From: Acidobacteriota bacterium | GTDB taxonomy: Bacteria > Acidobacteriota > Terriglobia > Acidiferrales > UBA7541 | DNA: 33,185 bases | Reading direction: 5' to 3' | NCBI GenBank assembly: GCA_003224235.1 | Contig: QHYU01000085.1 | Span: 1-33,185, forward strand | Part shown: one piece after another, positions 5,249 to 33,185 of the stretch | Layout: the number at the start of each line of letters is the position of its first letter | How positions within the stretch are numbered: the stretch's first letter is position 1 | Made by a program: the position numbers and the translations under genes | Notes under the pieces: model-generated | What the model was told of the DNA's origin: nothing | What the model saw: only the letters and a program-made list of their open reading frames with translations | Databases searched by the model: none

Positions 5249-5415
5249 GGGTGCCCCATCCTCGCCTTGTGAGGGTGGGGCTGTCATTTCGAGTCCGCCA
5301 TAGGGGACGGCCCCGCCTTGGCGGGGTCCGGGAGAGATTCCTCGGCCCGACCAACACCGTCGGCCCTCGTCCGAAACCAAAGGCCCCACCCTCACAAGGC
5401 GAGGATGGGGCACCC
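5249..5415. repeat. 33-bp perfect inverted repeat around a ~100-bp core
   Basis: Positions 5249-5281 and 5383-5415 are exact reverse complements over 33 bases. They enclose about 101 bp that include an inner hairpin (CCCCGCC TT GGCGGGG) and a TGTCATTTCGAG...GAGATTCCTCGG pattern that resembles dispersed intergenic repeats seen in acidobacterial and related genomes. It lies in the 620-bp gene-free gap between the tRNA and rtcB. No transposase is present, so it is non-coding: either a mobile miniature element or a large RNA hairpin. Confidence 0.8.
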
Positions 5416-24110: not shown

Positions 24111-26147
24111 ATGGAAAAAAAAGCAAACCTGCAACTCCTTAATTTTGGCGGCTTTATTCAGAGTGTTTGGTTGCCCGCCAAACGCGCGCTGGATTATGCA
24201 AATACGCGGTATGCCGAAGCACAGGAGAACTTGTCTCTCGGAGAGCCACGACCACCGGTGGGCATCGACTCTTGGGAAAGATTCGGATTTTACGGTCAAA
24301 GTGCCGTGTGGGAGGCCTATTTTTGGCTTCATTTCGGCATTGATCTAGGTTACTTCCCGAGGCGAGAAGCTGAGGATTTGCTGAGGCAGGGTTTTCCTGT
24401 TTCTCCCGAGTTCATAAGGCCATTCAGGCCGCTTTATCCCGTGTTGTTGAAAACTCTGATGACCGATGTACTCCGCGGCAACGAGTTTTTCCCCAGTGCA
24501 GGCTACGAGGGATTCAGAGACGCGGCCGCCATCCACATTCCATTCCAAGCGGCTCTTATGATGGAAGCCAGCTATGCCCGCAGCCCGGTGACCCAGAGCT
24601 TTACAATGGCCATGACTTTCATCTCCGAGCCATCGTGGGAAAAGTTGATAGGACGGGAAGAGTGGATGAAAGATGATCTCTCCACGGAGCGATTCGATCG
24701 TGCCCTCACTGGCGAACTGACGGAAGCTGCCGAACCCAACAAAGAGAACCTACTCGCTGGCTTCTTCCGAGCTATAGAACACATGGCCAATTTCCGGGCA
24801 TTGTTTGACACTCTTCGTACAACCCAGAAGCTCGAATATGCTGACGTGAAGCTGCTAGAGCGGCGTGTAAAGGAGATCTGCCTTTGGCGGTTGAATTTCG
24901 CGGCGGGCACAGCAAAGAAGCGTTTTTTCGATCTCCTGGACAGTGCTGCTTTGGCAATATCCTTAGAAAGGGACCGTCAGCAACTCGTCTCTAGTTCGAA
25001 GCCTAACGTTCCTGCATTCGGACAAGCTGTCGATAAAATAATAAACGAGTGGACTTCTGGAGTCATAATGGGGCCAGTAAACCACTGGCAAGAAACTCGC
25101 AACGAATCGCCAGTGTTCACAAGGACTTGTGCGCTAACTGCCGCAGCCAGCGAAGGGATGAAAATCGGATTGCTATGCGGACGGGAGTACAGTTTTCCCT
25201 CGGCGTTCATCGGCCGGGTCAACGATCTCGGCAGAGCGGAAGGCATCACCGCTGAATTCGTGAGTCTCGGCGGGACGCTCATCAGCGAACCAGCGCGCTA
25301 CCGGGTCATTGTCGACCGCATCTCGCATGAGGTGGCCTACTATCGCGGCTATCTGAAGCACGCCGTGCTGCAGGGCACCTACGTCATCAACAATCCGTTT
25401 CGGTGGTCTGCCGACGATAAATTCTTCAACACTTCGTTGGCGCAGAAGCTCGGCGTGGCCGTCCCGAAGACGGTGCTGTTGCCACAGAAGTCCTACCCGC
25501 AGGACGTGGACATCACTTCCGAGTCCCTGCGCAATCTGGAATACCCGATTGAGTGGGACGCGTTGCTGGACTATGTCGGGCGTCCCGCCATCCTGAAGCC
25601 GTTCCTCGGGGGTGGCTGGAAGCACGTGTATAAGGTCCACAACAAGGAAGAGCTGCTCGCGGCCTACGACGGCACCGGACCGTACTGCATGGTGCTGCAG
25701 GAGTTCATCGACTTCCAGCAGTACGTCCGCTGCTTCAGCTTCGGCAAGTCCGACATCATGCCCGTACCATACGAGCCGCGCGAGCGCCGGTATTTGGTTG
25801 AGCATGAATACCTGACGCCGGAACTGGGCGCGCGCGTCGTTCGCGACGCCCAGACCCTCAACCAGGCGCTCGGCTATGAAATGAACACCGTCGAGTTCGC
25901 CATCCGGGATGGCATTCCCTATGCCATCGATTTTCTGAACCCTGCGCCCGACTTCGAGCTCGATCGCATCACCCCTTTCTATTTCGAGCGCGTCGTGGAT
26001 CGCATGGCGCGACTCGTGATCGACCGCGCCCTGCGTGGCACTGCGGTCGATCCCTGGCCACGTTGGGAAGAGATGCTGGGCCTGGGTAAGGCGACCGATT
26101 TCGTCGACGCGCCGCGCGTTAGGGCTGCGGGAGCCGGAGCCGCATGA
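24111..26147 (+). CDS. Chimeric protein: unrecognised N-terminal region fused to an ATP-grasp ligase
   Basis: 678 residues. Residues 1-349 are mostly helical, with no signal peptide, and match no family I know; segments include DSWERFGFYGQSAVWEAYFW and FFPSAGYEGFRDAAAIHIPF. Their DNA is visibly lower in GC (one line, 24121-24180, counts 28 of 60), has no ribosome site, and starts with ATG followed by a run of eight A. From M350 (ATG 25158) the protein is an ATP-grasp enzyme, a fold that joins carboxylates to amines with ATP. Evidence is the lysine in GRPAILKPFLGGGWKHV, MVLQEFIDFQQYVRCF, MNTVEFAIRDGIPYAIDFLN (metal-binding E, D and N). The first 192 codons of that part are a near-identical copy of the gene at 32610. 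Translation from the internal ATG would give a 329-residue stand-alone ligase. Fusion, recombination or misassembly are all possible. Confidence 0.75.
   Translation: MEKKANLQLLNFGGFIQSVWLPAKRALDYANTRYAEAQENLSLGEPRPPVGIDSWERFGFYGQSAVWEAYFWLHFGIDLGYFPRREAEDLLRQGFPVSPEFIRPFRPLYPVLLKTLMTDVLRGNEFFPSAGYEGFRDAAAIHIPFQAALMMEASYARSPVTQSFTMAMTFISEPSWEKLIGREEWMKDDLSTERFDRALTGELTEAAEPNKENLLAGFFRAIEHMANFRALFDTLRTTQKLEYADVKLLERRVKEICLWRLNFAAGTAKKRFFDLLDSAALAISLERDRQQLVSSSKPNVPAFGQAVDKIINEWTSGVIMGPVNHWQETRNESPVFTRTCALTAAASEGMKIGLLCGREYSFPSAFIGRVNDLGRAEGITAEFVSLGGTLISEPARYRVIVDRISHEVAYYRGYLKHAVLQGTYVINNPFRWSADDKFFNTSLAQKLGVAVPKTVLLPQKSYPQDVDITSESLRNLEYPIEWDALLDYVGRPAILKPFLGGGWKHVYKVHNKEELLAAYDGTGPYCMVLQEFIDFQQYVRCFSFGKSDIMPVPYEPRERRYLVEHEYLTPELGARVVRDAQTLNQALGYEMNTVEFAIRDGIPYAIDFLNPAPDFELDRITPFYFERVVDRMARLVIDRALRGTAVDPWPRWEEMLGLGKATDFVDAPRVRAAGAGAA
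25158..25733 (+). repeat. Long direct duplication of the ATP-grasp gene, copy 1 (copy 2 at 32610-33185)
   Basis: The two 576-base segments align without gaps, with about 23 differences by hand count. About ten of these fall in the first 66 bases and the rest are spread thinly over the following 510. Similarity begins at the start codon; upstream sequences are unrelated. Copy 2 is cut by the window edge, so the full extent is unknown. Confidence 0.95.
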
Positions 26148-26217
26148 GCGCGCTTCCGCCTCACGCTCGGTGCGCGTCAGAGCACACGGATTTGCGGGCT
26201 AAGGTCTAGACCCTTAT

Positions 26218-27244: not shown

Positions 27245-27327
27245 CGTTTCACCGCGAGGGCGCGGCGGGCGGGGAAGCGGGCGGCGGCGCCCAACTCCTC
27301 CTCGATGCGGACCAAGTGGTCGCACTT
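27245..27327 (-). pseudogene. Remnant of an enolase gene 3' end
   Basis: These 83 bases align without gaps to the real eno end (27432-27514) with about 15 differences. On the minus strand they read [20 protein letters not shown] then RRALAVKR, against [20 protein letters not shown] then RIAVAVKR. The reading frame is kept, so the copy is from a diverged enolase gene rather than random drift. The rest of the gene is absent. The remainder of 27013-27427 contains the inverted repeat described next and nothing else I recognise. Confidence 0.85.
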
Positions 27328-27427: not shown

Positions 27428-28849
<1,422 letters not shown>

Positions 28850-31405: not shown

Positions 31406-32539
31406 ATGGGTCACTGCTTTACCATCGGCGTTGAAGAAGAGTTTCAAATTGTTGATCCTTCAACTCTGGAACTCCGTTCGCACGTCAGCAAACTGATTGC
31501 CGCCACCTCGCCGGACATGGGCGAACAGATCAAGCCAGAGCTTCACCAGTCGATCGTCGAGATGGGCACGCGGATCTGCCGAGACGTTCCGGAGCTGCGC
31601 GAGGAGCTGTACCGCACCCGCGGCGCGTTGGTGTCAGCGGCAGAGCGGGTGGGATTGCAAGTGGCCGCGGCCGGTACGCACCCCTTTTCCAATTGGATTG
31701 AGCAGGTGATTTCTCCAGGCGAGCGCTACGAGAACATCGTGGAGGAGCTGCAGCAGCTCGCGCGTTCCCTGCTGATCTTTGGCATGCACGTGCACGTCGC
31801 CATGCCGGACTGCAACACGATGATCGACCTGATGAATACCGTGCGTTATTTCCTCCCGCACCTGCTGGCGCTCTCCACCAGTTCTCCCTTCTGGATGGGT
31901 CGCGACACCGGCCTGAAGTCCTACCGCACAACGATCTTTCGGCGGTTTCCCCGCACCGGTGTACCCGACCACTTCGGCTCCTGGAGCGAGTACGACAACC
32001 ATGTGAAGCTGCTCGTGGATCTTCATTGCATCGACAACGGAAAGAAAATCTGGTGGGATGTTCGTCCTCACCCCACCTTCGGAACCCTGGAGTTCCGCGT
32101 CTGTGACATTCCCACGCGAATTGAGGAAACGATCGCCATCGCCGCGTTGATCCAGGCGATCATCGTCAAGCTGCATCACCTCTACACCCAGAACATGGGT
32201 TTCCGCCTCTACCGCCGGGCGCTAATTGAGGAGAACAAGTGGCGCGCGGCCCGCTGGGGCATCGATGGCAAGCTGATCGACTTCGGCAAACGCATCGAAG
32301 TGCCTATGCGCGACTTGGCTGTCGAGTTGCTTGAGTTTGTAGACGACGTGGTGGACGAACTCGGCAGCCGTTCGGCAGTGAACTATGTCCACACGATCCT
32401 GCGCGAGGGCACCAGCGCCGAACGGCAGTTGCGCGTATACAAAGAAACCGGCGACCTCAAGGCCGTAGTCCGGCAAGTGGTGGCCGAAACGCGCGCCGGA
32501 ATCACTGTTGGCGCGGCCTGCGCGGCCGGCGCGCCTTGA
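31406..32539 (+). CDS. Carboxylate-amine ligase of the GCS2 / YbdK family
   Basis: 377 residues from ATG 31406. The fold is that of glutamate-cysteine ligase type 2, which joins a carboxylate to an amine with ATP. GVEEEFQIVDP at 8-18 has the metal-binding glutamates; GMHVHVAMPD at 126-135 has the histidine pair; RPHPTFGTLEFRVCDIPTRI is the second metal and substrate segment. YbdK from E. coli has weak glutamate-cysteine ligase activity, but the natural substrates of most relatives are unknown. The ATP-grasp ligase gene follows 70 bp downstream, so two different ligases are probably made together. Such pairs of GCS2-like and ATP-grasp enzymes have been described in comparative work on amidoligases and proposed to build small peptides or modify metabolites. 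The ribosome site is weak. Confidence 0.93.
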   Translation: MGHCFTIGVEEEFQIVDPSTLELRSHVSKLIAATSPDMGEQIKPELHQSIVEMGTRICRDVPELREELYRTRGALVSAAERVGLQVAAAGTHPFSNWIEQVISPGERYENIVEELQQLARSLLIFGMHVHVAMPDCNTMIDLMNTVRYFLPHLLALSTSSPFWMGRDTGLKSYRTTIFRRFPRTGVPDHFGSWSEYDNHVKLLVDLHCIDNGKKIWWDVRPHPTFGTLEFRVCDIPTRIEETIAIAALIQAIIVKLHHLYTQNMGFRLYRRALIEENKWRAARWGIDGKLIDFGKRIEVPMRDLAVELLEFVDDVVDELGSRSAVNYVHTILREGTSAERQLRVYKETGDLKAVVRQVVAETRAGITVGAACAAGAP

Positions 32540-32609
32540 GCGGGACGATTCTGAAGGCAGTTGGGCCCCAGAAACAAGAACAAAAATCTAAACTGAGGAG
32601 CGAGTGCCT

Positions 32610-33185
32610 ATGAAAATTGGACTGCTGTGCGGGCGGGAGCTTAGTTTCCCCCCGGCGTTCATCGACCGGGTCAACGATCTCGGCAGAGCGGAAGGCATCA
32701 CCGCTGAATTCGTGAGTCTCGGCGGGACGCCCATCAGCGAACCAGCGCGCTACCGAGTCATTGTTGACCGCATCTCGCATGAGGTGGCCTACTATCGCGG
32801 CTATCTGAAGCACGCCGTGCTGCAGGGCACCTACGTCATCAACAATCCGTTTTGGTGGTCTGCCGACGATAAATTCTTCAACACTTCGTTGGCGCAGAAG
32901 CTCGGCGTGGCCGTCCCGAAGACGGTGCTGCTGCCACAGAAGTCCTACCCGCAGGACGTGGACATCACTTCCGAGTCCCTGCGCAATCTGGAATACCCGA
33001 TTGAGTGGGACGCGTTGCTGAACTATGTCGGGCGTCCCGCCATCCTGAAGCCGTTCCTGGGGGGTGGCTGGAAGCACGTCTATAAGGTCCACAACAAGGA
33101 AGAGCTGCTCGAGGCCTACGACCGCACCGGACCGTACTGTATGGTGTTGCAGGAGTTCATCGAGTTCCAGCAGTACGTCCGCTGC
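32610..33185 (+). CDS. ATP-grasp ligase, cut by the right edge
   Basis: 192 codons are visible from ATG 32610; GAGGAG (32595-32600), nine bases upstream, is a good ribosome site. The protein begins MKIGLLCGRELSFPPAFIDR and contains the nucleotide-binding lysine in GRPAILKPFLGGGWKHV and MVLQEFIEFQQYV. The catalytic C-terminal part lies outside the window but can be inferred from the duplicate at 25158-26147, which retains it. It should form an amide or peptide bond with ATP, perhaps acting after the GCS2-type ligase just upstream. Unlike its duplicate it has a proper leader, ribosome site and operon partner, so this is likely the parental copy. Confidence 0.92.
   Translation, partial: MKIGLLCGRELSFPPAFIDRVNDLGRAEGITAEFVSLGGTPISEPARYRVIVDRISHEVAYYRGYLKHAVLQGTYVINNPFWWSADDKFFNTSLAQKLGVAVPKTVLLPQKSYPQDVDITSESLRNLEYPIEWDALLNYVGRPAILKPFLGGGWKHVYKVHNKEELLEAYDRTGPYCMVLQEFIEFQQYVRC

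Follow-up and report, generated by a model that had tools for sequence, protein, structure and literature searches.

A cassette of three stand-alone ligases, accompanied by a peptidase-like protein and an esterase, begins at the right end of the Acidobacteriota DNA analysed here (33,185 nucleotides, the entire contig G000:C61, referred to below as the window). Its product is probably a short metabolite of peptide-like or amide nature, assembled bond by bond without a ribosome or an NRPS. The gene order, its conservation among genomes, the fold class of the ligases and their conserved catalytic residues were observed and argue for this assignment. The genes are located as follows.

31406..32539, + strand: GCS2 (YbdK-type) carboxylate-amine ligase gene, ATG at 31406, stop at 32539, 377 amino acids (open reading frame and profile matches)
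32596..32601, + strand: Shine-Dalgarno-like GAGGAG before the ATP-grasp gene, ~8 nt upstream of its ATG (read from the sequence)
32610..33185, + strand: first 192 codons of a RimK/LysX-like ATP-grasp ligase gene, ATG at 32610, frame open at the window end
33596-35008, joined coordinates, beyond the window: circularly permuted ATP-grasp, 470 amino acids
35161-36195, joined coordinates, beyond the window: M29-like metallopeptidase, 344 amino acids
36266-37009, joined coordinates, beyond the window: PF00756 esterase, convergent

The end of the contig falls inside the ATP-grasp gene, for which an alternative in-frame GTG is present at 32604. The contig is continued by contig C105 through an exact 161-base overlap, and C105 in turn by contig C207 through an exact 116-base overlap. 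These joins are supported by relatives showing the same gene order. Once joined, the ATP-grasp protein is complete at 329 amino acids (the remainder lies on C105, L004, minus strand), and its gene overlaps that of the permuted ATP-grasp by 4 nt. The unit then reads GCS2, RimK-like ATP-grasp, permuted ATP-grasp, M29-like protein and the convergent PF00756 esterase. The original prediction, made from the window, had described two ligases on one strand 70 bp apart, the second with a strong ribosome site; re-reading of both frames, the spacing and the GAGGAG confirmed this. It had also expected the unit to run past the right edge, where the two overlaps indeed give three more genes. Of the gene kinds anticipated there, hydrolases were found (the M29-like protein and the esterase), but an amidotransferase and a transporter were not, and a third ligase, the permuted ATP-grasp, is present as well. 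That ligase and the conserved linkage of the genes support the proposed small-peptide or amide unit, with the product class being what we infer.

The GCS2 protein matches PF04107 with 205.9 bits against a gathering score of 21 (E 1.1e-60) and is the sole PF04107 protein of the genome. The closest solved structures are those of YbdK (1r8g/1tt4). Homology to E. coli YbdK (PDB 1r8g) extends over the full length and includes the GhExE motif, and both proteins belong to the NCBIfam group 'YbdK family carboxylate-amine ligase'. However, the cassette protein falls in a sub-group of its own, NCBIfam NF010039 'carboxylate-amine ligase' (534.5 bits, cut-off 371), and stands beside two ATP-grasps. The GhExE motif, described as the ATP/Mg motif of GCS2 ligases (PMC2588565), corresponds to G8-V-E-E-E12. 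Within the cassette family, G8, E11 and E12 are present in 38 of 38 sequences and E10 in 37.

The RimK-like ATP-grasp is recognised by its fold and conserved residues. Against TIGR00768 (RimK family, cut-off 143.4), its 192-residue part scores 29.7 bits, and a 678-residue frame holding a full-length second copy scores 27.3 bits. The AlphaFold2 model of the family (pLDDT 87.8) has a clear ATP-grasp fold. Foldseek matched it to Ddl, LysX and RimK, while the top VIA-align matches were RimK, LysX and ArgX (Z 22-23.5 over ~258 residues, rmsd 2.4-2.9), with the graspetide ligases MdnC and PsnB also among the fold neighbours. K147, GGG151-153, E246 and N261 are found in all 57 sequences compared and D258 in 56 of them. 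As modelled, the protein thus combines the fold and the conserved ATP/metal residues of the ATP-grasp superfamily. The likeness to RimK, LysX and ArgX covers ~260 residues and includes the ATP-grasp residues. However, identity to them is 13-18%, the score is well under the TIGR00768 cut-off, and the cassette protein has D-F-L-N where E-x-N is usual. In further contrast to LysX, no LysW-like partner was found with the cassette.

The permuted ATP-grasp is placed by Pfam in CP_ATPgrasp_2/1 (PF14403/PF04174), not in a glutathione synthetase family, with 34.6 bits to CP_ATPgrasp_2 (cut-off 32). Its model (pLDDT 93.9) aligns with YgiC/YjfC at Z 31 (YgiC over 369 residues), with E. coli glutathionylspermidine synthetase at Z 30, with plant and human glutathione or homoglutathione synthetases at Z 29-30, and with Cp1B at Z 25.7; entries no more than 1 Z unit apart are regarded as tied. 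The modelled protein has the glutathione synthetase/YgiC permuted fold, and R121, D123, E135, N137, E139, K354, GG360-361 and R435 are invariant (n=47). YgiC/YjfC and glutathionylspermidine synthetase are the best structural matches (Z 30-31, rmsd ~3.4, 354-370 residues), but identity is only 14-16% and the cassette protein has no amidase domain. The eukaryotic glutathione and homoglutathione synthetases share the fold over 401-421 residues, and a GCS-type partner gene adjoins the permuted ATP-grasp in the cassette, although identity is 13-16% and the Pfam family is different. Cp1B, a ligase of the fungal E-64 pathway, is of the same fold class and is a stand-alone ATP-grasp acting in series with another amide-forming enzyme (PMC12568646). 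Its partners, an amide bond synthetase and an oxygenase, are nevertheless unrelated to those seen here and include no GCS2 or M29 protein. The family PF14403/PF04174 is also shared with the CP_ATPgrasp/Alpha-E/transglutaminase systems, for which peptide synthesis or modification is predicted, but no Alpha-E domain protein (PF04168) was matched in the present genome.

The M29-like protein scores 34 bits against PF02073 (cut-off 27). The M29 metal ligands in the joined protein are E195 (GEV), E267 (GEL), H293, H313 and D315, and the matching columns are conserved; the family keeps both glutamates, H(IAFG) and T-H-V-D. In the alignments, the two glutamates and one histidine correspond to residues of AmpS, and a histidine and the aspartate to residues of NicX. 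By sequence, its top PDB match is the NicX dioxygenase. NicX, however, has neither glutamate in the alignment, so the M29-like protein looks like a member of the peptidase branch. In the esterase, the G-x-S-x-G motif is present, and S119, D174 and H226 are conserved in at least 97% of 52 sequences.

When 84,980 species genomes were scanned using the alignment of the ATP-grasp, at least 538 relatives were confirmed. In the best 80 of these loci, which were read, a permuted ATP-grasp lies within a few kb in 71, GCS2 in 65, the esterase in 52 and M29 in 38. Close relatives account for 52 loci, Acidobacteria by record title with few exceptions; all carry the permuted ATP-grasp, 50 carry GCS2, 34 M29 and 32 the esterase, counts to be read with many contigs ending early. 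An initial set of relatives showed the four-gene order again, both inside the family and in a second family of the class. Where the Acidobacteriota order holds, only short gaps separate the genes (medians 53, 48 and 121 nt, some genes overlapping). The 28 distant loci, by record title mostly from Chloroflexota, Planctomycetota, Gemmatimonadota and other Acidobacteriota, include the permuted ATP-grasp in 19, GCS2 in 15, the esterase in 20 and M29 in 4. Other orders occur there: esterase, ATP-grasp, permuted ATP-grasp and GCS2 (sometimes two GCS2 genes), or ATP-grasp, GCS2 and M29 with the permuted ATP-grasp not seen. Since the order differs in other phyla, the linkage is not merely shared ancestry of one locus; since the permuted ATP-grasp was not seen in some distant loci, not all three ligases are needed in every case. 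By our estimate, chance alone would place a single-copy gene inside a given 12-kb stretch of a 4-Mb genome ~0.3% of the time. Conservation of the pair in related genomes, on which the original prediction depended, was thus found across Acidobacteriota, with rearrangement in other phyla. The distribution is nevertheless patchy: of 396 sampled Acidobacteriota genomes, 130 have the ATP-grasp family, and these belong to 81 of the 211 genera covered.

The survey yielded some side observations. Some loci (L031, L050, L066, L069, L077 and L078) carry a second PF00756 esterase and a further ATP-grasp (PF02222/PF13535) directly after the first esterase. A distant ATP-grasp subfamily (E ~1e-45, frames of ~415-485 amino acids) occurs in ~20 Acidobacteriota genomes (e.g. 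G374, G382 and G303). An apparent fusion of the two ATP-grasps in L052 was not taken as evidence, as the frame crosses an ambiguous base (X) at the junction. No cassette protein matched a defence system in PADLOC, the ATP-grasp had no match in 72,556 plasmid records, and no PHROGs match pointed to a phage origin.

The RimK-like ATP-grasp is present twice in the genome, with the second copy, which the original prediction does not mention, upstream in the window.

24111..26147, + strand: 678-residue frame, in which an orphan stretch of 349 residues at the N-terminus is joined in frame to an ATP-grasp copy (open reading frame list)
25158..26172, + strand: second ATP-grasp copy, followed by ~25 nt from the start of the permuted ATP-grasp, the next gene in the cassette (alignment)

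The second copy (25158-26144), the C-terminal half of the 678-residue frame, is 93.5% nucleotide-identical to the cassette copy. With dN/dS of 0.29 between them, both copies have been under some constraint. The second is a recent duplication whose footprint extends into the next gene. The contig break sits in a stretch nearly identical between the two copies, and is probably an effect of the duplication. The orphan part looks foreign, judged by its low GC and unusual codon use (GC 51.8% and GC3 55%, against ~62% and 79% in its neighbours). It has no relative in 60 related genomes or 396 Acidobacteriota genomes, and no match in plasmids, PHROGs or PDB sequences. In a sister genome from this genus (L062:5583-8134; G001:C173), GCS2 is without ~codons 70-320 and the permuted ATP-grasp ends after ~residue 165, followed by the sequence of another gene. 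These deletions indicate that the cassette is being lost there. The ATP-grasp frame is still open in spite of them, and the protein may therefore also act alone. Elsewhere in the window, positions 5249-5415 hold a 33-nt inverted repeat whose arms match perfectly and stand 101 nt apart. Two 80-nt copies, 84% alike, lie at 27248-27327 and 27435-27514; one forms the 3' end of the enolase gene and the other is found just past its stop.

Formation of an acyl phosphate is established for all three ligase superfamilies. With three such ligases conserved beside a peptidase-like protein and an esterase, a stepwise amide-forming route is the best reading. Linked distinct ligases reportedly often catalyse successive steps, and their operonic linkage has been described in general terms (PMC4431377). 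We infer the substrates, the order of steps, the hydrolase roles and the small-molecule nature of the product as follows. By analogy with glutathione-type pathways, GCS2 would phosphorylate a carboxylate, of which the gamma-carboxylate of glutamate is the likeliest, for coupling to an amine or amino acid. A second amine or amino acid may then be attached by the permuted ATP-grasp to the carboxylate left free in the gamma-glutamyl product. The pairing of GCS2 with a glutathione synthetase fold suggests such a product and its extension, as happens in glutathione, homoglutathione and glutathionylspermidine. The RimK/LysX-like ATP-grasp could add another residue, and the M29-like metallopeptidase and the esterase could trim, release or recycle the product. 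As gene order varies between phyla, it is no guide to the order of steps.

The same pairing could also make glutathione or an immediate analogue through non-orthologous enzymes, with GCS2 forming gamma-Glu-Cys and the permuted ATP-grasp replacing GshB. Gamma-glutamylcysteine ligases do occur among GCS2 proteins, and the permuted ATP-grasp model shares the fold of eukaryotic glutathione synthetase. Neither a GshB-type glutathione synthetase (PF02955) nor GshA (PF04262) was matched in this 99.4% complete genome, positive controls being used, so that making glutathione would require a replacement. However, bshC is present (PF10079, 304.7 bits, G000:C141:31130-32263, L125), and gene content has led to a prediction of bacillithiol for Acidobacteria (PMC6282198). 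From the genes present, this genome likely relies on bacillithiol as its low-molecular-weight thiol, and the main thiol would be accounted for. With the canonical glutathione genes absent and bshC present, the cassette is probably not simply the main thiol pathway. In addition, the second ATP-grasp and the M29-like peptidase would be superfluous for glutathione, the ATP-grasp family is missing from about two thirds of the sampled Acidobacteriota, and identity to solved glutathione synthetases is only ~13-16%. We consider a glutathione pathway unlikely. The RimK-like ATP-grasp itself scores far under every curated cut-off in a genome without PF02955 and PF04262. Membership in a known pathway such as glutathione synthesis, which would have refuted the original prediction, was therefore not recognised. 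Only slightly better placed, though still unlikely, is the modification of a protein or a cell-surface polymer by RimK-like addition of glutamate or other residues, to be reversed by the M29-like protein and the esterase. RimK, LysX and ArgX, the nearest folds of the ATP-grasp, do work on protein tails or carrier proteins. No small LysW-like carrier or target gene is conserved within the cassettes, however, and the nearest folds of the permuted ATP-grasp use small peptides.

The presence of hydrolases is also compatible with amine scavenging, in which GCS2 would gamma-glutamylate amines that the M29-like peptidase and the esterase later release or degrade; glutamylation of amines for catabolism is known from other pathways. 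Against this, the genes that recur beside the cassette across phyla include no oxidase, dehydrogenase or aminotransferase, and two extra ligases make little sense in catabolism. This role appears improbable. Still less credit is given to cyclisation of a ribosomal precursor by the ATP-grasps, as part of a graspetide-like RiPP pathway. The fold neighbours of the ATP-grasp do include MdnC and PsnB, but RimK and LysX outscore them, and no small frame is conserved in 151 intergenic and upstream stretches. The only small frames that recurred in this precursor search shadow two other genes, an upstream aminotransferase-like gene and an inserted one. To our knowledge, GCS2 is absent from known graspetide systems, which also counts against this role; we regard it as very improbable.

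The stepwise synthesis of a peptide-like or amide metabolite is thus preferred, against which it should be mentioned that these folds serve several reactions, including protein and ribosomal-peptide modification, and that M29 accompanies few of the distant loci. A more specific proposal is doubtful at present: the product could be a new, widely shared soil-bacterial metabolite, a gamma-glutamyl pseudopeptide possibly handling thiols or metals, with YgiC/glutathione-synthetase-like and RimK-like enzymes acting after a YbdK-type ligase. No description of this exact gene set was found in the literature searched, outside of which stands a 2009 amidoligase survey by Iyer et al. that reportedly treats such neighbourhoods. 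For most YbdK-type GCS2 proteins, we know of no established true substrate. The cassette occurs in at least four phyla, its ATP-grasp family in a third of the sampled Acidobacteriota, and with a single GCS2 protein in this genome the recurrent cassette makes the question of YbdK-type substrates directly testable. Should the cassette prove to make a new gamma-glutamyl metabolite, the compound would be widespread in soil.
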